Assembly: GCA_947460345.1 (NCBI GenBank)
Contig: CANHGM010000025.1
Span: 1 to 39,496 of the forward strand
Source: Bacteroidota bacterium
GTDB taxonomy: Bacteria; Bacteroidota; Bacteroidia; UKL13-3
DNA length: 39,496 bases
Direction of reading: 5' to 3'
How positions within the stretch are numbered: the first letter of the stretch is position 1; every line of letters begins with the position of its first letter. The translations under genes were made by a program, and so were the position numbers. A model generated the notes under the pieces. It saw only the letters and a program-made list of their open reading frames with translations. It made no database searches and had not been told where the DNA came from. Of the stretch, positions 15,897 to 27,646 are shown in pieces.

Positions 15897-15925
15897 TTGT
15901 TCATCAAAAATCATAAGTACATTTG
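15897..15925 (+). promoter_or_regulatory. Complete -33/-7 promoter for the E1 dehydrogenase gene
   Basis: TTG at 15897-15899 and TACATTTG at 15918-15925 are separated by 18 bases, matching the Bacteroidota pattern TTG-N(~19)-TAnnTTTG. The box ends 12 bases before the ATG at 15938, so the leader should be about 7 bases. It contains the TTG at 15923 that would otherwise be read as an alternative start codon. Confidence 0.6.
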
Positions 15926-15937
15926 CCCGATTTTAAT

Positions 15938-17995
15938 ATGAGCGTAATAGATAGAAATATATTGATAGAAGCCTACGAACTAATGTGTTGTGTAGGATAT
16001 ATGGCTGAAACCTATGATAACAATAGAAATATTTGTAAATATGTACACAGCACTAGTAGAGGACACGAAGCAATTCAATTAGCAGTTGGATTTCTTCTTG
16101 AAAATTATGACTATATATGTCCATACTACAGAGATGAGAGTATTTTATTAGGTATTGGCTTAAGTCCATATGAGCTCATGTTGCAATTGTTGGCTAAAGC
16201 AGATGACCCTTTCAGTGGAGGACGTTCATATTATTCACACCCATCATTAAAAAGAAAAGGTTTCCCAACCATTCCGCATCAAAGCAGTGCAACGGGAATG
16301 CAAGCTATTCCTGCAACTGGTATTGCACATGGTATTTCTTATAAAGAATCAGCTGGACTCAACAACCCTGATGAATTTCCTATTTCAGTATGCTCACTTG
16401 GCGATGGGTCTGTTACCGAAGGCGAAGTATCTGAAGCCATGCAGATGGCAGTGTTAAAAAATTTACCTGTTATATTTTTAGTACAAGATAATAATTGGGG
16501 TATATCAGCTACTGGCGATGAAATGCGTGCGATGGATGCCTACCAGTTTGCTGAAGGATTTAAGGGTTTGAAAAGAGTGAGAGTTGATGGAAGTGATTTT
16601 GAAGAAAGTTATACAGCAGTGAAGAAAGCTTTTGAATGGGTAAGAGAGAAAAGAAAACCGATGCTCATTCATGCCAAAGTTCCATTACTTGGGCATCATA
16701 CATCAGGTGTTAGAAAAGAATGGTATAGAGGGGAAGAAGATTTAGCCCATCATTATAAAGATGACCCAAGACCTAAATTAAGGAATAGATTGTCAGAATT
16801 GGGTATTAGTGAAGCCGAGATATTTGAAATTGAAGAAGTAGCTAAAAGCAGAGTAGCCAATCATTTTCAGATGGCTGTTGAAGCAGCGGAGCCAAAAGCG
16901 GCAGAGGTGATGAGCCATGTTTTGGCAGAAACAACTATTACCAAAGAAGTAGGCAATAGAACTCCAAAAAGAGAAGAAACCACTTTAATGGTTGATGCAG
17001 CCTTACATGCAGTAGATGAGTTGATGCAGAAACATCCTGAATGTTTATTTTATGGTCAAGATGTGGGTGCTAGACTAGGAGGTGTGTTTAGAGAAGCAGC
17101 TACATTAGCTAAAAAATATGGCGACCATAGGGTATTTAATACACCCATTCAAGAAGCCTATATAGTAGGAAGCACAGCAGGTATGAGTTGTGTTGGATTA
17201 AAACCTATTGTAGAAATTCAGTTTGCTGACTATCATTGGACTGGTTTAAATCAATTGGTGACAGAGTTGTCAAAATCTTGTTATTTAACCATGGGTAAAT
17301 TTCCTGTGAGTTCAATTATCAGAATTCCTATAGGAGCATATGGTGGTGGAGGTCCATATCATTCAGGGAGTATAGAGTCAACGTTGTTAAATGTTAGAGG
17401 AATAAAAGTTTGTTATCCGTCAAATGCAGCTGATATGAAAGGTTTAATGAAATCAGCTTATTATGATCCAAACCCAGTGGTGATGCTCGAACACAAAGGT
17501 TTATATTGGAGCAAGAATCCAGGAACTGAAGATGCAAAATGTATAGAACCCGACGAAGAATATATATTGCCAATGGGTAAAGCAAATATAGTTTTGAGAG
17601 CAGGAGATGATGAAATAGAAAATGGCGAAAGTATTGGAATTATAACATATGGAATGGGTGTGTATTGGGCTAAATCAGCTGCTAAAAACTTTGAAGACCA
17701 AGTAGAAATTTTAGATTTAAGAACTTTATATCCATTAGATGAAGAAGCTGTAGACAAATTGGTTGAACGACATGGTAAATGCATTATTTTGACTGAAGAA
17801 CCGCTTCTAAATAGTTTTGCTGAAAGTTTAGCAGGTAGAGTCAGTTCAAGGAATTATACAAAACTTGATGCTCCAGTAAAAATAATAGGTTCTTTAAATC
17901 TACCTGCAGTGCCTATTAATTTAATTTCAGAAAAAGAGATGTTCCCCAACCCTGAAAAAGTTTCAGATGCAATAAATGAACTTTTAAATTGGTAG
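15938..17995 (+). CDS. 2-oxoacid dehydrogenase E1, fused alpha and beta subunits
   Basis: 685 residues from the ATG at 15938; the TTG 15 bases upstream lies inside the promoter box and is rejected as a start. Residues 1-~330 are E1 alpha with the ThDP motif GDGSVTEGEVSEAMQ (from 155) and NNWGIS near 186. Residues ~342-685 are E1 beta (TLMVDAALHAVDELM, GYG-like EAYIVGSTAGM, RIPIGAYGGGGPYHSG, and a transketolase-C domain with DLRTLYPLDEEAVDKLV). It decarboxylates a 2-oxoacid and passes the acyl group to an E2 lipoyl protein. Fused E1 proteins of this length in Bacteroidota are usually annotated as branched-chain (2-oxoisovalerate) or generic; substrate is not decided here. E2 and E3 are not in the window. 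Confidence 0.88.
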   Translation: MSVIDRNILIEAYELMCCVGYMAETYDNNRNICKYVHSTSRGHEAIQLAVGFLLENYDYICPYYRDESILLGIGLSPYELMLQLLAKADDPFSGGRSYYSHPSLKRKGFPTIPHQSSATGMQAIPATGIAHGISYKESAGLNNPDEFPISVCSLGDGSVTEGEVSEAMQMAVLKNLPVIFLVQDNNWGISATGDEMRAMDAYQFAEGFKGLKRVRVDGSDFEESYTAVKKAFEWVREKRKPMLIHAKVPLLGHHTSGVRKEWYRGEEDLAHHYKDDPRPKLRNRLSELGISEAEIFEIEEVAKSRVANHFQMAVEAAEPKAAEVMSHVLAETTITKEVGNRTPKREETTLMVDAALHAVDELMQKHPECLFYGQDVGARLGGVFREAATLAKKYGDHRVFNTPIQEAYIVGSTAGMSCVGLKPIVEIQFADYHWTGLNQLVTELSKSCYLTMGKFPVSSIIRIPIGAYGGGGPYHSGSIESTLLNVRGIKVCYPSNAADMKGLMKSAYYDPNPVVMLEHKGLYWSKNPGTEDAKCIEPDEEYILPMGKANIVLRAGDDEIENGESIGIITYGMGVYWAKSAAKNFEDQVEILDLRTLYPLDEEAVDKLVERHGKCIILTEEPLLNSFAESLAGRVSSRNYTKLDAPVKIIGSLNLPAVPINLISEKEMFPNPEKVSDAINELLNW

Positions 17996-18214: not shown

Positions 18215-21200
18215 ATGAAAAGAATTTACTTATTTACCATGTTTTGTTTAATGGCAGCAATGGTTTCAGCTCAATCTCAATTCGGAGAAATTCGTGGAGA
18301 GGTGAAAGACAAAGCTACTGGAAAACCTTTAGAAGATGCTTCTGTAGCATTAGAACTAAATGGAGTAGTAAAAGCAACAACGACTACCAATGAAAAAGGT
18401 AGCTTTAGTTTTAAAACACTTTCACCAGGAGAGTATACCATTAAATTGGTTTTGTTTGGATATGAGAAAATTCAATTAGAAGATGTAACTATCTCAGTTG
18501 ACCAAATCACCTATGTAAAATTAGAGCCAAGCTCTACATCAAACGAACTCAAAACATTTACCAAAAAAGGATATAAGGTACCTATTATAAATCCAGACGG
18601 TGTAAATGGTAGAACTACAACCAGCAAAGAACTTACAAATATTCCTACACGAAATATCAATGGAATTGTTGGTCAAAGTGCCAACGTAAACTCAATTGGT
18701 GGAGGTAATCCAAACTTTAGTGGAGCACGTTCTTCAGGTACAGCTTATTATATAGACGGAGTTAGGGTAATTGGTAGTTTTAACGTGCCACGTTCTGCTA
18801 TTGACCAAGTTCAAGTAGTAGTTGGAGGTACACCAGCACAATACGGTGACTTTGTTGGAGGAGTAATTAATATCACAACTAAAGGTCCTTCACGTAAACA
18901 TCAAGGTGGATTTGAAGCCATTTCATCAAGTATGTTTAATCCTTATCACTTCAATCAATTTGAGTATTCATTACAAGGGCCAATAAAAGTAATAAACAAA
19001 AAAAGTAAAGCAGAAAGAGTGCTACTTGGATATTCTACCAGTGGTAATGTAGCATATCAAAAAGATCAAGCTCCTTTATACGGAGGTTCATATTATTTAA
19101 AACCAGAAGTTTTAGCTAGCTTAGAACAAAATCCATTACGTCCTTCTCCTACAGGTACTGGATTTGTAAACAGTGCTGAATTTATAACCAAAGATGACAT
19201 GGTTAAATATAAAGCCAATAAAAACGACCCATTGTTAGATGTAAATTTAACAGGTAATATCAATTATCAACCAACAAAAAATATCAATATAGTATTAGGT
19301 GGAACCTTAAATTATAGAGATGTTATTGGATATAATTTTGGAAATACTTTATTCAATTATTCTAGTAATGCACATTCTGTAAGTAACACATTAAGAGGAT
19401 GGGTAAGATTTACTCATACTTTAAAGAAAGACGAAAGAAAAGCTAAAGATAAAGAAATCAAATCTAATGTTTCAAGTGCTTATTACACCATTCGTTTTGA
19501 CTACACTCAAACAAATTCATTGACTGAAGATGCTAGATATAAATCAGATATTTTTAGTTATGGTTACTTAGGAAACTTTACAACATATAGAGCACCAGCT
19601 TATCGTGTTGTAAACACAGGTCTTTATGGCCAACCTAGAAAATTCACTTACGTTGATAAAATCACTGGTCAAACTAAAACTATTGAACTATCACAATTTG
19701 TTGAGCAAACAGGTATGTCTGATACTTTACTTACTTTTGAAAGAGGTGGTAAAAACCCAATAAGAGAAAATTATACTCAGTATATATACGATTACTATAA
19801 AAATAAAAACCAAACAATTAGTAGTGGCGATGAATTGCGTTTCTACACAGGATTGTTAAACGGTGATGCTCCACAATCAGTATATTCTATGTGGAATAAT
19901 GTTGGAGCTCCAGGAGCAGGATATGGAAAAAGCCAAGTTGAGCAATATACATTATTTGCTATGAGTGAAATTACATTACGTAGCAAAAAAGATCCAGACA
20001 AAAAACATGACTTGTCATTTGGTTTACAATATGAACAACGTATACAAAGAGGTTATTCAGTTGCTTCAACGGGTATTTGGAGTTTGATGCGTCAATTAGC
20101 TGTAAAAGACCGTCCAGTTAGAGATTTAAGCAATCCTGTTTTGGTTTTTGATGACGCTGGAAATTTCTTAGATACAATAAAATATAATTTAACAGTAGAC
20201 CCTAACACAGAAGGTTCTTTTGTGAAAAACATGAGAAAACACTTAATGGAATCAGGAGCTAAAGATGCTAATGGTAATCCTATTACACAAAATTCTTATA
20301 TAGATGTTGACATGTATACCCCTGATAACTATAAGTTAAAATACTTTAGTCCAGATGAGTTGTTAAATAATGGTAGCAAATTCGTTGACTATTTTGGATA
20401 TGATGTATATGGAAACAGATTGAAAGGAAAGCCTGCAATTAATGACTTTTTTGATTCAACTAAAAGAACAATTGGGGCTTTCCAACCAATATATACTGCA
20501 TTCTTTATTCAAGATAAATTTGCGTTCAAAGACTTAATTTTTAGAATAGGGGTTCGTATTGATAGATATGATGCAAATACTTTTGTATTAAAAGATCCTT
20601 ATTCATTATATCCTGTTAAAACAGTTAGAGAAGTAAGATCAGAAAGTTCTCCAATTTCTCAACAATTAAACAGTTCAGTATCTGATGATGCTGTTGTATA
20701 TGTAAACGATGTAGAATCACCAACCAGTATCGTGGGATATAGAGAAACCAATACAAACAATGGAGTAACCAGGTGGTTTGATAAAAATGGTTCTTCAATC
20801 AATGATCCTCAATTAATTGCAAACGCTACATCAACAGGACAAATTGCCCCTTATTTAGTGAATAGAGCTAAAAGCGATAGAAAAATAACTTCTAACTCAT
20901 TTGCCGATTATAAACCTAAATTTTATATCAACCCACGTATTTGGTTTAAATTCCCTATATCAACTACTGCTCAGTTTTTTGCTAACTATGATGTACTAAG
21001 TCAAAGACCTGATGCAGGAAATATTACTACTATAGACGATTATTATTTCTTAATTGCAAATGCAACTGATGTGATTAATAACCCTGCACTTAAACCACAA
21101 CGTACAACAAGTTACGAATTGGGTTTCAAACAACAAATTGGAGACAATTCAGGTTTAAGTTTAATAGCTACTTATCGCGAAATGAGAGATATGGTTCAAA

Positions 21201-21994
21201 TCTTTAGATACAGCCAAGCATATCCATTAAACTACACAACTTTTGGAAACATTGACTTTGGAACTGTAAAAGGTTTCCGTGTTGAATATGAATTAAGAGA
21301 TGCAGGTACAAAAGGTAATATGAACATGAGTGCAAACTACTCTTTATTATTTGCTGACGGTACAGGTTCAAATGCTGGATCTCAACAATCATTAATTAAT
21401 GCAGGACAACCTAATTTACGTACATTGTTTCCATTAGACTTTGATATCAGACATACCATCAAAGGGAATTTTGATTTCCACTTTAAAGACAATGACGGAC
21501 CTATATATAAAGGTAAATATTGGTTGCAAAACGCTGGTATGAATGTAATAGTTCAAGCATTCTCAGGTACACCATACACTGCAAACTCTCAACCTATAAA
21601 TGAAGCACAAGGAGGTGTTGTTCAACGTTCTCAAGTAAGAGGTTCTATTAATGGTTCTCGTAAACCATGGATATATAATGGAGACATTACATTTGATAAA
21701 ACATGGAATTTAAATACAGGTAAAAAAGAACAAAGAGAAGGAAAAAGAGTGATGAATTTAAATGCATATATTTGGATTTCAAATGTATTAAATACAAAAA
21801 ATGTAACTGGAGTTTATAGATATACTGGCTCAGCAACAGATGATGGGTACTTAGCTTCAGCACAAGGTCAACAAGCAGTTCAAAGAGCTTTAAGTTCACA
21901 ATCTTTTATTGATTTATATTCAACTAGAGTTCAAAATCCAGGATTGTTTTTGCAACCACGTTTAATACGTTTAGGTTTCAGATTTAATTTCTAA
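18215..21994 (+). CDS. TonB-dependent outer-membrane receptor with carboxypeptidase-like N-terminal domain
   Basis: 1,259 residues. The signal peptide is about 1-20 (MAAMVSAQ). A carboxypeptidase regulatory-like beta-sandwich covers about 25-105 (GEIRGEVKDKATGKPLEDAS, ISVDQITYVKLEP). A plug domain lies at about 135-225 (YYIDGVRVIG, AIDQVQVVVGGTPAQYGD, GGVINITTKG). The rest is a 22-strand-type barrel ending in LIRLGFRFNF with a terminal Phe. It would import a substrate too large for porins, powered by TonB/ExbBD. It is first in a three-gene operon (19- and 20-base gaps) with a large secreted protein and a PorV-like barrel, not paired with a SusD homologue, so it is not a standard polysaccharide-utilisation locus. 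TATATA is much rarer here than in neighbouring genes. Confidence 0.9.
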   Translation: MKRIYLFTMFCLMAAMVSAQSQFGEIRGEVKDKATGKPLEDASVALELNGVVKATTTTNEKGSFSFKTLSPGEYTIKLVLFGYEKIQLEDVTISVDQITYVKLEPSSTSNELKTFTKKGYKVPIINPDGVNGRTTTSKELTNIPTRNINGIVGQSANVNSIGGGNPNFSGARSSGTAYYIDGVRVIGSFNVPRSAIDQVQVVVGGTPAQYGDFVGGVINITTKGPSRKHQGGFEAISSSMFNPYHFNQFEYSLQGPIKVINKKSKAERVLLGYSTSGNVAYQKDQAPLYGGSYYLKPEVLASLEQNPLRPSPTGTGFVNSAEFITKDDMVKYKANKNDPLLDVNLTGNINYQPTKNINIVLGGTLNYRDVIGYNFGNTLFNYSSNAHSVSNTLRGWVRFTHTLKKDERKAKDKEIKSNVSSAYYTIRFDYTQTNSLTEDARYKSDIFSYGYLGNFTTYRAPAYRVVNTGLYGQPRKFTYVDKITGQTKTIELSQFVEQTGMSDTLLTFERGGKNPIRENYTQYIYDYYKNKNQTISSGDELRFYTGLLNGDAPQSVYSMWNNVGAPGAGYGKSQVEQYTLFAMSEITLRSKKDPDKKHDLSFGLQYEQRIQRGYSVASTGIWSLMRQLAVKDRPVRDLSNPVLVFDDAGNFLDTIKYNLTVDPNTEGSFVKNMRKHLMESGAKDANGNPITQNSYIDVDMYTPDNYKLKYFSPDELLNNGSKFVDYFGYDVYGNRLKGKPAINDFFDSTKRTIGAFQPIYTAFFIQDKFAFKDLIFRIGVRIDRYDANTFVLKDPYSLYPVKTVREVRSESSPISQQLNSSVSDDAVVYVNDVESPTSIVGYRETNTNNGVTRWFDKNGSSINDPQLIANATSTGQIAPYLVNRAKSDRKITSNSFADYKPKFYINPRIWFKFPISTTAQFFANYDVLSQRPDAGNITTIDDYYFLIANATDVINNPALKPQRTTSYELGFKQQIGDNSGLSLIATYREMRDMVQIFRYSQAYPLNYTTFGNIDFGTVKGFRVEYELRDAGTKGNMNMSANYSLLFADGTGSNAGSQQSLINAGQPNLRTLFPLDFDIRHTIKGNFDFHFKDNDGPIYKGKYWLQNAGMNVIVQAFSGTPYTANSQPINEAQGGVVQRSQVRGSINGSRKPWIYNGDITFDKTWNLNTGKKEQREGKRVMNLNAYIWISNVLNTKNVTGVYRYTGSATDDGYLASAQGQQAVQRALSSQSFIDLYSTRVQNPGLFLQPRLIRLGFRFNF

Positions 21995-22013
21995 TTATAA
22001 AAATATTACCAAG

Positions 22014-25000
22014 ATGAAAAAGATGAATACATTAAGTAAACTGTGGGTAGTATGCATATTTGTTGCATATACAACTATACAGACGGTAGTTGCCCGTGAA
22101 ATTATAGGCACACCACCTAAAGGGAACGGAAATATTAACACATCTAACAGCCGCATGCAAACTATGGCTGCTGGTTGTAAGCAACCTACAGCACAAGTAG
22201 ATTTAGATATAAACAATGTCAGAACTACCATTATGAATGGTGGTGATATGTGGTGGAATTTAGTGAGTGCAAAATATGAAATTCCGAAAGTAACAGACCC
22301 TAATGGTGTGAGAAAGCACTCAATTTTTGCTGGTTCTTTATGGATTGGAGGAGTAGATGCAGGAAAAAACTTAAAATTAGCAGCAATGACTTATCGTCAA
22401 AGTGGTGTTGATTTTTATGCAGGTCCTTTAGATACTTCAACTACACCAAATCCTATAATTGACCCACAACGATGTGATTATTACGATAAAATATATAAAG
22501 TTTCTAGAGAAGAAATAGACGCATTCATTCAATTTGGAAGTGCTAAAATTACAAAAGCTATTTTAGAATGGCCTGGAAATGGGTCTAGAGCTTTTGGAGA
22601 ATCTCAATACTTAGCCCCGTTTGTAGATGTTGATAATGATGGACAATACTCACCTCTTAATGGAGATTACCCAGATATTCCGGGTGACCAAGCTTTATGG
22701 TTTGTGTATAATGATAGAGGAAATATACACACTGAAACTCAAGGTGTGCCTATTGGTTTAGAATTGAGAACAACTGCTTTTGCATTTGCTACCAATGATG
22801 AAATTAATAATATGACCTTCTATACCACTCAAGTTATTAATAGAGGTGAACCTGTAGAGCAAGTTTATTTTGGCCAATGGATTGATCCAGATTTAGGAAA
22901 CTATTCTGATGACTACGTTGGTTGTGATACTACACGTCAACTTGGATATTGCTATAATGCTGATGATGATGATGAAGGAATATTAGGTTATGGTAAAAAT
23001 CCTCCTACAGTAGGATTAGACTTTTTTAAAGGTCCAATTGGCGATTCAGGTTTAGAATTAGGCATGTCTTATTTTGTTTATTATAATAATGACTTCACCA
23101 ATATTGGTAATCCATTCAGACCAGCTCATTTTTATAATTTCTTAAAAGGATTATGGCATGATGGAAGTCCAATGACATTTGGTGGAAATGGCACCGGTGG
23201 ATCTATTGCTACTAAATATATGTTCTCAGGAGACCCGGTTGCAAATACAGGTTGGACAGAAAAAACAGCTGGAAATCAAAAAGGAGATAGAAGATTTATT
23301 CAAAGTTCTGGACCATTCACATTAAAAACAGGAGCTGTAAATGAAGTAACTGTTGGGTCTGTTTGGGCTAGAAGTTCTGCCGGTGGTGCAACAGGTTCTT
23401 TAAACTTATTAAGATTAGCTGACGATAAAGCTCAAACATTGTTTAATAATAAATTCAAAATATTTGACGGTCCTGCAGCTCCAGATTTAGCTTTAAAAGA
23501 ATTAGACAATCAAATAATTATTACTTTAGAAAACACTCTTGAAATTGAAGGATATAATAAAAAAATTAGAAATCCTTTGAATGGCGTTACTCCAGATTCA
23601 TTCAATTACAAATTCCAAGGATATATGGTTTACCAATTAAAAGATGGCGGTGTATCAAATGGTGAATTAGATAATACTGAAAGAGCCAGATTGGTTGCAC
23701 AATTTGATTTGAAAGATAACACCATTCAATTAGTAAATAAAGTATACGACCCAGTGGTAAGTCAGTATGTTCCTGTTTCTAAAGTAATAGGAAACAACGA
23801 AGGCATCAAACATACATTTACTGTTAAAGAAGACTTATTTGCAGCTGGAGATAAGAAGTTAGTAAATTATAAATCATACTACTATTTAATACTTTCATAT
23901 TCAAATGTAGTAAATGACCCTGTTTCTTCAAATCCAGATCAATTTTTAGCAGGACGTAAAAATGTTAAAATATATTCAGCAATTCCACATAAATCAAAAA
24001 TGAACCTTGGTGGGTCTGATATTAATTCAGACTATGGTTCAGGTCCAAAAATCACTCAGATAGAAGGTATGGGAAATGGAGGAAATAATTTAGAATTAAG
24101 CAAATCTAGTTTGACTTTATTGATGGGAAAACCTGGAGAAAAACCAACTATTAATAAACTTTCTACTGTAGAATATGATAATGCTAATGGACCAGTTTCA
24201 ATAAAAGTAGTTGATCCAATGAAAGTAGGTAGCTATGAATTTGAATTAAAGATTATAGAAGATACAATAAGAAGTGCTAGAAATCTTAAAAAGACACGAG
24301 ATTTTTTAAATGATACTTTTACAACTTGGATTTTAACTAATAAAACTACAGGTGAAGTGATTAAATCTGATACTACTATTTTGACTGCTAATGAACAGTT
24401 AATTTCTAAATGGGGTATTTCTGTTACTATTAATCAATCTAATATACCAGGAACTAATACTGACGAATTTGACAAAACAAATGGTTTTTTAACTTCTTCT
24501 ATAACCTTTGAGAATAATAGCAAACAATGGCTTGCGGGTTTACCTGATATCGATGGTCATCCTTATTATAATTGGATAAGATCAGGAAATACCGGCAAAC
24601 AAGATGGTTTTGGTGGCCGTACCAATGATCCATATTTATATTCATATGATTATGCTAGAAATACTGCTAGCGGATTAGAATCGTGGGATCCATTTGAAAA
24701 TTATGAAAAAATATGTAACAGAACATGGGGACCATATAAATTAGTGTCAAGAGCAGTTAGGAAAGCTGACGCCAATGGAAATGGAACCAATTCAGTTACC
24801 TACGGACCAGGATGGGGAGGTTTTTATAAAGGAGCATTCCCAACGTCATCAATCAATGGTAATAATGAAAATAGAATTGAAGAACTTGCAAGTGTAAATA
24901 TAGTTCTTACTCCAGATAAGAGTAAATGGACAAGATGTGTGGTTCTTGAAATGTGTGAAGATTCGATGCTAAGTGAAGGCAATAGAAATAAGTTTTTTAT

Positions 25001-25946
25001 CAGAAAACATGCTTCATGGACTGGCGAATTTGATGCAAATGGAAAACCAATTTATGATGCAAATGATCAAGGTAGAAGTTGGTTCCCAGGATATGCAATT
25101 AATGTAGAAACAGGTGAAAGATTAAATATCATGTTTGGAGAAGATTCATGGTTAAAAAGCGAAAATGGAGATGATATGATTTGGAATCCAACCAGTAATG
25201 TAGAAGACAATAGAGGACCATTGTTTGGTGGTAAACATCATATATTTGTGTGTGGCTCAACTACAATACCTGCTACAGGTAGTGGTAATGCTTCTGTTAC
25301 ATTTGCCGGAACAATATATGACGAAGGGAATTTATATAAGTCTATTCTAGACAATATTGCAAAAACGGCAAGTTCTCCTTCAGCTTCTTCTGAAATGCTT
25401 AAGATTACTTCTCAAATCCAATGGGTTATGATGCCATTTTTAGCGCAAAATTTCAAGTTAGATCCTAAAACAATTGTACCTGCTGATGGAGAGGTTACTT
25501 ATAGAATTAGATTGACTAAACCATATGCCAGATTTAATTATCTACGTCAAAGTATTGGTTTCCCTAGATATACTTTTAAAACGGATGAAATAGCTAGAGT
25601 TGCTTCTACTGAAACTGGCAAAAAAGGATTACTTGAATTAACTAATATAGTTCCAAATCCATATTATGCATCTTCTGGATATGAAAGTAATCAATTAGAC
25701 ACTCGTGTTAAATTAATTAATTTGCCACCTAAATGTATAATTTCAATATATACATTAAACGGTAACTTAGTAAGAAGAATTAAGAAAGATGATCCGGCTA
25801 CTTGGCTAGATTGGGATATGAAAAATTCGGCACAAGTTCCAATTTCAAGTGGTATTTATTTGATACATATAGATGCTGGTGAGCTTGGTGAGCGTACGCT
25901 TAAATGGGTTGGAATTATGAGGCCAATAGATTTAGATACTTTCTAA
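22014..25946 (+). CDS. Large secreted protein with T9SS-type C-terminal domain, partner of TonB receptor and PorV-like barrel
   Basis: 1,310 residues. Signal peptide about 1-28 (ends TIQTVVA). The N-terminal part contains GGDMWWNLVSAKYEIPK and HSIFAGSLWIGGVDAG, features I associate with a widespread, uncharacterised Bacteroidota surface-protein family. The middle is Asp/Asn/Gly-rich, with possible calcium-binding turns (DVDNDGQYSPLNGDYPD). The last ~90 residues form a FlgD/T9SS type A-like sandwich (LTNIVPNPYYASSGYES, ISIYTLNGNLVRRI, SSGIYLIHIDAGELGERTLKW), but the chain ends RPIDLDTF, not the usual basic tail. That suggests a variant sorting signal. No enzyme motif is visible. The neighbours suggest it is exported by T9SS and held at the surface with the adjacent barrels. 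Confidence 0.8.
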   Translation: MKKMNTLSKLWVVCIFVAYTTIQTVVAREIIGTPPKGNGNINTSNSRMQTMAAGCKQPTAQVDLDINNVRTTIMNGGDMWWNLVSAKYEIPKVTDPNGVRKHSIFAGSLWIGGVDAGKNLKLAAMTYRQSGVDFYAGPLDTSTTPNPIIDPQRCDYYDKIYKVSREEIDAFIQFGSAKITKAILEWPGNGSRAFGESQYLAPFVDVDNDGQYSPLNGDYPDIPGDQALWFVYNDRGNIHTETQGVPIGLELRTTAFAFATNDEINNMTFYTTQVINRGEPVEQVYFGQWIDPDLGNYSDDYVGCDTTRQLGYCYNADDDDEGILGYGKNPPTVGLDFFKGPIGDSGLELGMSYFVYYNNDFTNIGNPFRPAHFYNFLKGLWHDGSPMTFGGNGTGGSIATKYMFSGDPVANTGWTEKTAGNQKGDRRFIQSSGPFTLKTGAVNEVTVGSVWARSSAGGATGSLNLLRLADDKAQTLFNNKFKIFDGPAAPDLALKELDNQIIITLENTLEIEGYNKKIRNPLNGVTPDSFNYKFQGYMVYQLKDGGVSNGELDNTERARLVAQFDLKDNTIQLVNKVYDPVVSQYVPVSKVIGNNEGIKHTFTVKEDLFAAGDKKLVNYKSYYYLILSYSNVVNDPVSSNPDQFLAGRKNVKIYSAIPHKSKMNLGGSDINSDYGSGPKITQIEGMGNGGNNLELSKSSLTLLMGKPGEKPTINKLSTVEYDNANGPVSIKVVDPMKVGSYEFELKIIEDTIRSARNLKKTRDFLNDTFTTWILTNKTTGEVIKSDTTILTANEQLISKWGISVTINQSNIPGTNTDEFDKTNGFLTSSITFENNSKQWLAGLPDIDGHPYYNWIRSGNTGKQDGFGGRTNDPYLYSYDYARNTASGLESWDPFENYEKICNRTWGPYKLVSRAVRKADANGNGTNSVTYGPGWGGFYKGAFPTSSINGNNENRIEELASVNIVLTPDKSKWTRCVVLEMCEDSMLSEGNRNKFFIRKHASWTGEFDANGKPIYDANDQGRSWFPGYAINVETGERLNIMFGEDSWLKSENGDDMIWNPTSNVEDNRGPLFGGKHHIFVCGSTTIPATGSGNASVTFAGTIYDEGNLYKSILDNIAKTASSPSASSEMLKITSQIQWVMMPFLAQNFKLDPKTIVPADGEVTYRIRLTKPYARFNYLRQSIGFPRYTFKTDEIARVASTETGKKGLLELTNIVPNPYYASSGYESNQLDTRVKLINLPPKCIISIYTLNGNLVRRIKKDDPATWLDWDMKNSAQVPISSGIYLIHIDAGELGERTLKWVGIMRPIDLDTF

Positions 25947-25966
25947 TTTTTAAAACAAATTACAAA

Positions 25967-27082
25967 ATGAAAAAAACTTTAAAAATATTTATATTTGGGG
26001 CATTATTAGTAGGTTCTAGTCAATCATATGCTGGAAATCCTGATAGAACAGGAACATCAGGTGCCGCACAACTTCAAATAAATCCTTGGGCTAGAAGTTC
26101 AGGATGGGGGGGGGCTAATGTCTCTGGAGTACAAGGTATTGAAGCTTCCTATTTGAATATTGCAGGATTAGCCTTTACAAAGAAAACGGAATTGTTATTT
26201 AACCACACCAATTTATTTCAAGGTACTGGACAATCATTTAATACACTTGGGTTTTCTCAAGCAGTCGGTAAAAAAAGCAATGGTGGTGTTATGGGAGTGT
26301 ATATTAACAATTACTCATCAGGAGATATTGAACGTACAACTTACTCGCAACCAGAAGGTGGCTTGGGAACTTTTAATTATCAAACATTAGATTTAGGAGT
26401 TTCATACGCTAAAAGTTTTTCTAAAAGTATATTTGGAGGAATGAATTGCAAAGTAGTTTCTATGGGGATGAGTGATTCAAGAGCTTCAGGATTTGCATTA
26501 GACGCAGGAATTCAATACCGTACTTCCTCTAATAAAAAAACGGAGAGAATTAAAGGTCAAGATGTAAAATTCGGAATTTCAATAAAAAATATTGGACCTG
26601 ATTTGTCATACAGAGGTGATGGTTTATCGCTTCGTGGTACCTCTGACGATAAAACGTATAGCCAAACATTAGAACAAAGATCTGCAGGTTTTAATTTGCC
26701 TTCTATGGTAAATATTGGTGCTTCATATGATTTTAGATTAGATGGAAAAAATGCTGAAACATATTATCATAGACTTACCCTAGCTTCAAATTTTACTTCA
26801 AATTCTTTTAACTATGACCAAACATCTATAGGTTTAGAATATGCATATAAAAGCTTTTTGATGGTGAGAGCAGGATACCAATATGAAAAAAATATAGGAA
26901 CAACTTTATCTACATCAGCATTTAATGGCTATTCAACTGGAATTACTTTAGAGTTGCCTTTTTCAAAAAATAAATCTACCTTTGCCATGGATTATTCGTA
27001 TAGGTTAACTCAAGTATGGGGAGGTGTACATACATTAGGAGTGCGAATTAATTTAGGAGCATCAGTAACGGATGAAGATTAA
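25967..27082 (+). CDS. PorV/PorQ-family outer-membrane barrel protein
   Basis: 371 residues from the ATG at 25967; the frame is open upstream but overlaps the previous gene. Signal peptide about 1-23 (SSQSYAG). The mature start NPDRTGTSGAAQLQINPWAR is the hallmark of the PorV/PorQ family (FadL-like barrels), followed by EASYLNIAGLAFTKKTEL and many amphipathic strands. PorV shuttles T9SS cargo from the secretion pore to the PorU attachment complex. This copy sits in an operon with a TonB receptor and one large cargo-like protein, which suggests a dedicated paralogue; the canonical porV is usually elsewhere. The operon ends at a strong terminator 25 bases downstream. Confidence 0.82.
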   Translation: MKKTLKIFIFGALLVGSSQSYAGNPDRTGTSGAAQLQINPWARSSGWGGANVSGVQGIEASYLNIAGLAFTKKTELLFNHTNLFQGTGQSFNTLGFSQAVGKKSNGGVMGVYINNYSSGDIERTTYSQPEGGLGTFNYQTLDLGVSYAKSFSKSIFGGMNCKVVSMGMSDSRASGFALDAGIQYRTSSNKKTERIKGQDVKFGISIKNIGPDLSYRGDGLSLRGTSDDKTYSQTLEQRSAGFNLPSMVNIGASYDFRLDGKNAETYYHRLTLASNFTSNSFNYDQTSIGLEYAYKSFLMVRAGYQYEKNIGTTLSTSAFNGYSTGITLELPFSKNKSTFAMDYSYRLTQVWGGVHTLGVRINLGASVTDED

Positions 27083-27107
27083 TTAAAAAAACTAAAATAT
27101 AATACCT

Positions 27108-27147
27108 CAAACGTTTCGACCATCAAAGTCGAAACGTTTGTGTTTTT
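27108..27147 (+). terminator. Perfect-stem rho-independent terminator ending the TonB/PorV-like operon
   Basis: CAAACGTTTCGAC (27108-27120) and GTCGAAACGTTTG (27128-27140) form a perfect 13-bp stem with a 7-base loop, followed by TGTTTTT. It separates the operon from greA. Confidence 0.88.
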
Positions 27148-27175: not shown

Positions 27176-27646
27176 ATGGCATTACAATATTTTTCCAAAG
27201 AAGGATTAGAAAATCTTAAAAATGAATTACATCAACTAAAGACTGTTGAACGTCCAAAGATTTCACAACAAATTGCTGAAGCAAGAGATAAAGGAGATTT
27301 GTCTGAAAACGCAGAGTACGATGCAGCTAAAGAAGCACAAGGGCTTCTTGAACATAAAATATCTCAGATGCAACAAATACTTGGCAACGCAAGGGTAATA
27401 GATGAGAGCCAAATGGATATAAGCAAAGTAATGGTTTTGAACAAAGTAAAAGTTAAAAACCATAAAACAAATGCAGTTGTTAATTACCAATTAGTTTCAG
27501 AAAAAGAAGCTGACTTAAAAACAGGTAAAATTTCAGTAAAGTCGCCAATAGGCATTGCATTACTTGGGAAAGTAGTGGGTGAAAAAGTAGATGTAACTGT
27601 ACCAGCCGGAGTTATAACTCTAGAGATACTCGAAATATCTATCTAA
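27176..27646 (+). CDS. greA: Transcription elongation factor GreA
   Basis: 156 residues. It rescues backtracked RNA polymerase by stimulating transcript cleavage. An N-terminal coiled coil carries the acidic tip DKGDLSENAEYDAAKEAQ, with catalytic-type Asp41 and Glu44. A C-terminal FKBP-like domain follows (residues about 80-156, with KISVKSPIGIALLGKVVGE and a final beta strand). Length and motifs are typical. The HIT-family gene starts 2 bases after its stop, so they form an operon. An imperfect -7-like ATAATTTG lies just before the start. Confidence 0.95.
   Translation: MALQYFSKEGLENLKNELHQLKTVERPKISQQIAEARDKGDLSENAEYDAAKEAQGLLEHKISQMQQILGNARVIDESQMDISKVMVLNKVKVKNHKTNAVVNYQLVSEKEADLKTGKISVKSPIGIALLGKVVGEKVDVTVPAGVITLEILEISI

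Follow-up and report, generated by a model that had tools for sequence, protein, structure and literature searches.

The DNA considered here (the window) is a stretch of 39,496 nucleotides from a Bacteroidota bacterium of the lineage UKL13-3 (assembly GCA_947460345.1, contig CANHGM010000025.1; contig C25 of a 3.0-Mb, 76-contig genome that is 99.3% complete). Three successive genes on its forward strand encode a TonB-dependent receptor, a large secreted protein (the cargo) and an outer-membrane barrel of the PorV/PorQ family (together the trio; Table 1). The trio is a phylum-wide, often multi-copy module and no local curiosity. It is probably an importer that works like SusCD, with a capture protein that leaves the cell through the type IX secretion system (T9SS) and is pinned by a PorV-family barrel of its own; private anchoring is held likelier than import.

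Table 1. Features of the trio locus, in window coordinates
Feature	Coordinates	Strand	Remarks
TonB-dependent receptor, 1,259 aa	18215..21994	+	CarboxypepD_reg residues 26-101, plug 135-217, outer-membrane-protein-type C-terminus
Cargo (secreted), 1,310 aa; no Pfam/NCBIfam model for its family	22014..25946	+	
N-terminal domain of cargo (residues ~55-484); super-beta-sandwich as at the N-terminus of GH94/GH65/GH116/GH15 enzymes	22176..23465	+	structure model and VIA
Cargo C-terminal domain (CTD), residues 1203-1310, PorZ/PorU-like Ig fold	25620..25943	+	
Cargo C-terminal tag RPIDLDTF, past last CTD strand	25920..25943	+	conserved sequence and end point
Outer-membrane barrel of the PorV/PorQ family, 371 aa; putative anchor dedicated to the cargo	25967..27082	+	
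Intrinsic terminator, 13 pairs, loop 7, T-rich tail	27108..27140	+	
greA, conserved next gene 3′ of trio, outside operon	27176..27646	+	

The three products

A first-pass annotation, made from the letters alone, had described three envelope genes closed by a single 13-bp terminator, and its coordinates, gaps and hairpin all hold: 19 bases separate receptor from cargo and 20 separate cargo from barrel, while the terminator hairpin, followed by a T-run, has a fold z of -4.55, with 0 of 200 shuffles equally good. The list of open reading frames includes a longer reading of the barrel gene that starts at 25904 and overlaps the cargo; the start at 25967 gives an N-terminus that looks, by eye, like a signal peptide. 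A promoter scan of the window did no better than shuffled sequence (60 found, shuffle mean 57.6).

The receptor matches the Pfam families CarboxypepD_reg (E 1.1e-14) and TonB plug (2.2e-5; 25.4 bits, cut-off 23.9), which makes it a TonB-dependent receptor, and its TonB-box-like segment and plug were compared with those of other trio receptors by eye only. It has no SusD partner of the kind that defines SusCD: none is encoded in the operon and PF07980 is unmatched in the genome, the other SusD-type Pfam families not having been searched. This agrees with the initial description of a TonB receptor without SusD. In a sequence search of the PDB, only the small domain at the N-terminus of the receptor drew matches (carboxypeptidase D, cellulosomal scaffoldin).

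The cargo has no match at E up to 1 to any Pfam or NCBIfam model, including the type A sorting domain TIGR04183 and the type B models TIGR04131 and CHU_C. It is not among the genome's 140 TIGR04183 matches (150 of 176 candidates scored); some of its relatives do pass that model (for example L182, 28.1 bits, cut-off 23), and two other proteins of the window carry ordinary type A T9SS domains. No lipobox was seen by eye, and PDB searches with the single sequences of cargo and barrel gave nothing convincing.

Single-chain AlphaFold models of the cargo (residues 50-700, pLDDT 87.6, 63 sequences; residues 690-1310, pLDDT 84.8, 68 sequences) say more about its two ends; the middle, about residues 700-1190, is barely covered by the fold searches. 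The front is predicted to share the N-terminal super-beta-sandwich of the glycoside-active families GH94, GH65, GH116 and GH15 (VIA Z 18.9, 253 aligned, root-mean-square deviation 3.3). None of the 50 matches listed for this domain has a SusD, beta-propeller or lectin fold, which is no proof of their absence. The cargo could accordingly be pictured as an exported enzyme, its super-sandwich a remnant of a glycoside phosphorylase or hydrolase, whose products the receptor imports. This fold kinship and the conserved acidic motifs in the N-terminal half of the cargo speak for such a picture; the (alpha/alpha)6 catalytic barrel of those enzymes, however, is not apparent in the secondary structure of either model, and neither the window cargo nor the other cargos scanned match an enzyme family, so that an enzymatic cargo seems very improbable.

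At the other end, the CTD is closest to that of PorZ by three routes and belongs with the Ig-like CTDs of the PorZ/PorU type. A profile search of the PDB places PorZ first (E 6.8e-4), adiponectin second (0.0028) and PorU third (0.21); adiponectin, in which no stretch passes by itself, was taken as a chance match. Foldseek ranks PorZ first (8.3e-6) and PorU next (2.5e-4), and VIA gives Z scores of 10.9 for PorZ, 8.3 for Vpr, 8.2 for PorU and 7.1-7.9 for solved type A domains. The NCBIfam PorZ model also touches the CTDs of other trio cargos (L182 3.1e-13, L211 3.1e-7). This kinship with PorZ strengthens the first-pass proposal that the cargo has an attachment barrel to itself.

The barrel passes the cut-off of the NCBIfam PorV/PorQ family NF033709 (129.6 bits, cut-off 90) and falls below the equivalog cut-offs for PorV, PorQ and PorV2 (59.1/250, 56.9/220 and 48.6/325 bits). 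Five PorV-family members of the genome exceed the family cut-off, the trio barrel among them, and the true PorV, PorQ and PorV2 are separate genes elsewhere, which rules out the barrel as the genome's sole PorV and leaves it a paralogue, as had been suggested. The genome also has its own PorU and, on contig C40, a PorZ (603.8 bits). Elsewhere in the window genome (G000), a second PorU-like protein lies just 5′ of the PorV2 gene (G000:C6:57712-63798, L044; 1,714-aa frame, 121.7 bits, below the cut-off), PorU likewise lies just 5′ of PorV on contig C12, and of the 6 PorV-family matches in the genome, 3 begin no more than about 250 bases after the gene of a CTD protein.

Recurrence and co-inheritance of the trio

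Three sets of loci bear on how often the genes stay together. First, cargo relatives (E up to 0.001) occur in 150 of 296 sampled genomes of the phylum. Regions around listed matches were taken from 54 other genomes, mostly chosen down the ranking (55 regions, 56 cargo frames): a related receptor directly 5′ and a related barrel directly 3′ accompany 45 of the 49 cargo genes with both flanks readable. Second, a search of named genomes with a cargo alignment gave, as the best 80 Bacteroidota loci of a longer list (79 of them labelled as metagenome-assembled genomes), a named set with the full trio, in the same order and strand, at 69 of 74 loci with both flanks readable; the probe came from the C-terminal domain of the cargo and so gives no advantage to loci with neighbours. 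Third, a CTD profile at E 1e-8 found 64 matches, 2 in the window genome and 2-13 in each of seven others, and 34 of 40 regions around such matches in the eight genomes hold receptor, cargo and barrel in order (by eye; 33 by a script rule). The remaining six are one tandem cargo pair met twice (L184, L185) and four lone relatives of about 700 aa. The genes are usually found together, so that the first-pass reading survives its own test that homologues might lie apart, and this recurrence, with the co-evolution described below, rules out chance neighbours.

Some loci of the named set are incomplete. One has a barrel and no receptor within 800 bases (L137), and of six loci at contig edges five show a readable neighbour, with L170 lacking a receptor in 1.5 kb upstream. 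At L123 (9971-13897) the cargo between receptor and barrel is split over two frames, and the copy may be decaying, rearranged or misassembled.

The cargos fall into two classes by their ends. Tailed cargos run about 10 residues past the last strand to an aromatic/aliphatic end, such as the RPIDLDTF of the window, and untailed cargos end like PorZ (GKFAIIK). The terminal RPIDLDTF, singled out early as unusual, is present as described and proves to be a family trait: the last residue is aromatic in all 70 trios of the named set (F in 49, Y in 21), and 69 of them have D at position -5. The model shows no secondary structure in the tag (mean pLDDT 66 for model residues 611-620); being conserved in sequence and end point all the same, it looks like a partner-binding peptide.

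The three genes also diverge in step. Distance matrices were compared for 36 trios of seven genomes, with partners shuffled within genomes in 2000 trials. The correlations were 0.79 for CTD and barrel, 0.90 for cargo front and receptor and 0.89 for receptor and barrel, against shuffle means of 0.03-0.07, and 0 of 2000 trials reached the observed values. The trio is inherited as a unit, though contact is not proven by co-inheritance alone. For all 36 trios, 9 of them tailed, the most similar barrel of another genome goes with a cargo whose end is of the same class. Genomes with more cargo candidates also have more PorV-family candidates (rho 0.82 over the 150 cargo-positive genomes); both are first-look counts of candidates, of which 2-7 per genome were scored, and hence proxies for copy number.

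A tree of 72 rows includes 57 of 149 trio barrels. Those that serve tailed cargos make up a single clade of 30 rows (support 99/98) apart from PorV (100/99) and PorQ. The barrels that serve untailed cargos form a weaker group (81/63) with the C16 barrel of the window genome as its basal member, and PorV2 is placed next to the trio groups; the tree therefore does not establish a single clade of all trio barrels (two changes). One row, L231, is probably in the wrong reading frame (branch above 5), and L198 and L211, marked as tailed in the tree, have untailed cargo ends (VLK, IVR).

These pairings bear on another possibility, namely that the cargo is an ordinary T9SS substrate served by the general PorV and that the paralogous barrel, a mere porin or lipid channel, is in the operon by coincidence. 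The genome does have a full PorV, PorU and its many type A CTD matches, and according to passages of one paper type A CTDs are all recognised by PorV (PMC12618676). The cargo CTD, however, lies outside those TIGR04183 matches, barrel similarity and cargo-end class agree without exception across genomes, and PorV-family candidate numbers rise with cargo numbers; this alternative is improbable.

Secretion system, SusD and genomic surroundings

SprA is present in 148 of the 150 cargo-positive genomes, the window genome included, and the two that lack it have marginal cargo matches only (G032 1.3e-4, G114 5.7e-4). Export of the cargo presumably depends on SprA, and the first-pass phrase “self-contained surface machine” is therefore too strong, even as its proposal of a dedicated barrel finds support.

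The distribution of SusD (PF07980) runs the other way. Among the 229 SprA-positive genomes, SusD occurs in 81 of 81 without cargo and in 74 of 148 with cargo, and candidate numbers of cargo and SusD are anti-correlated (rho -0.71). Within family f24 (19 genomes with cargo, 16 without), genomes without cargo have more SusD candidates (p 1.4e-5), and rho is -0.49 on the means of 49 families (230 entries for 229 genomes, one f2 value having been entered twice); these values of rho and p were computed without a phylogenetic model. Because the inverse relation is found within f24 and on family means, it is not only a split between classes. The trio is commonest in lineages with little or no SusD-based uptake.

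In the named set and other genomes of the window class, the next gene 3′ is greA in 68 of 69 rows scanned. The rows cover those trios whose following gene lies on the same strand at most 300 bases away (63 of the 70 trios of the named set); the one row without greA has a second cargo there, in L158. A 2-hydroxyacid dehydrogenase lies directly 5′ in 28 of 40 scanned. The window has instead, immediately 5′ of the trio (15923-17995), a 690-aa fused alpha-beta E1 component of a 2-oxoacid dehydrogenase. The window-class trio is one old, fixed locus with a core-gene air. The 47 neighbours scanned of multi-copy trios (47 of 49) include 22 T9SS proteins, 4 CBM20, 3 RpiR regulators, and GH16 and malectin domains (2 each); in the other-genome set, 4 of 18 upstream neighbours were scanned. 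In other classes, 11 of the 31 trios scanned have a gene for a GWxTD-domain protein directly 3′ of the barrel (for example L074:2218-3573).

The cultured Rhodothermus marinus offers two further loci. A plasmid search returned one record, from this species, matched over the CTD only; its plasmid pRMAR01 is annotated with a TonB receptor, a hypothetical protein (1,132 aa), a PorV/PorQ protein, a peptidoglycan-recognition protein and a serine hydrolase. The alginate utilisation locus of R. marinus, as labelled in the legend of Figure 2 of PMC9530828, lists a TonB receptor, a T9SS type A protein and a PorV/PorQ protein; this T9SS protein may belong to the cargo family. A search of the open papers in PubMed Central turned up no description of the three as a system, only these gene labels of PMC9530828.

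These surroundings bear on the alternative in which cargo and barrel are no more than an anchoring pair, a fixed surface complex like PorZ-PorQ with a structural, adhesive or envelope-biogenesis role, and the receptor serves recycling or signalling instead of import. The fixed site of the window class, with greA after it and often the 2-hydroxyacid dehydrogenase before it, is the pattern of a core gene, and no degradative enzymes were found among the window neighbours scanned. On the other side, the pair with the tightest co-evolution of those tested is receptor and cargo front; CBM20, GH16 and malectin proteins adjoin multi-copy trios; a trio is listed by the legend of PMC9530828 in an alginate utilisation locus; and the inverse relation to SusD also points towards uptake. 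An anchoring pair alone is unlikely.

Proposed mechanism and known systems

The SusCD-like importer that we prefer would work as follows. The cargo, made with a Sec signal, would use its PorZ-like CTD to pass the outer membrane via SprA, the T9SS translocon that it shares with other substrates. Its own PorV-family barrel, rather than the general PorV, would then collect it, and the cargo would remain there uncleaved, the conserved C-terminal tag forming part of the contact. The super-sandwich and neighbouring domains would capture a ligand outside, in many copies probably a glycan or similar oligomer, and hand it to the receptor in a presumed complex of the three, to be imported with TonB energy. 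According to passages of published papers, PorU is anchored on the surface via PorV and PorZ via PorQ (PMC5562754); the CTDs of PorU and PorZ are retained, and their cognate PorV-like barrels are suggested to protect them (PMC10202324); and PorV loops grip type A domains within the SprA pore (PMC10994853).

A number of observations weigh against this reading. On the side of structure, the predicted super-sandwich is a fold and no proof of sugar binding. The cargo reaches 20.8 bits against the PorZ equivalog NF052228, over the CTD only, and so misses its cut-off of 260, and the unrelated fibril protein Vpr ties with PorU in the VIA comparison of the CTD. Pairing as such does not require the tag, since untailed cargos have an end like that of PorZ. 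On the side of genome context, cargos with neither partner occur in the other-genome set (L071, L082, L086 and L094, of which L082 and L094 end in an ordinary type A domain) and in the named set (L129, L138, L139); L046 and L098, cut off by a contig edge on the upstream side, lack a barrel on the downstream side; and L158 (9878-19287) has two successive cargos with one barrel between them and one receptor 5′ of the first, its second cargo being counted as alone. The lone relative of about 700 aa, with neither receptor nor barrel, is found in four genomes (L218-L221), the window genome among them (L221:2947-5064, G000:C34). Lone cargos exist, and hence the barrel is not always at the locus. The window copy itself has no adjacent sugar enzymes and lies among housekeeping genes. 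Finally, linked genes also co-evolve through inheritance as one unit, and the relation to SusD runs along clades, so that phylogeny may account for part of it.

SusCD is the textbook route of nutrient uptake in Bacteroidota. The broadest version of the proposal, which we put somewhat short of even, is that the trio is a further main type of energised outer-membrane importer of the phylum, in which a T9SS-exported, barrel-pinned capture protein replaces the SusD lipoprotein, widespread and multi-copy outside the window class, and that SusCD expanded where the trio was lost; PorV would then be but one of a large set of one-cargo anchors. Should the importer reading be right, much of the phylum takes up its food through a different machine, put together by a secretion system. 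The several faithful cargo-barrel pairs within single genomes would also offer a natural experiment for an open question about the T9SS, how C-terminal signals choose a barrel.

Four known systems come closest to the trio. With PorZ-PorQ and PorU-PorV of the T9SS attachment complex it shares CTD kinship and, by analogy, the use of a PorV-family barrel to hold, at the surface, a single CTD protein that is not cleaved (passages of PMC5562754 and PMC10202324); unlike PorZ-PorQ, its cargo has a super-sandwich front and, in the tailed class, an extra tag, it is linked to a TonB receptor, and the genome has PorZ and PorQ separately. SusCD and RagAB likewise encode a TonB receptor together with a large surface protein, the two kinds of locus are inversely distributed, and one trio is listed in an alginate utilisation locus; the trio, however, lacks SusD, its partner is a T9SS-type protein and not a lipoprotein, and the barrel is a third partner. 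Type B CTD cargos with a PorP/SprF shuttle show the same arrangement of a cargo gene followed by its own shuttle or anchor barrel gene (passages of PMC12618676 and PMC9143113), whereas the trio has a PorZ/type A-like CTD, a PorV-like barrel and a linked TonB receptor. The genes of R. marinus pRMAR01 and of its alginate locus are the same three kinds in the same order; they are annotated only, and the passages that list them give no account of their role. The nearest precedents are PorZ-PorQ for the anchor, PorP/SprF with its type B cargo for the gene order and SusCD for the task.

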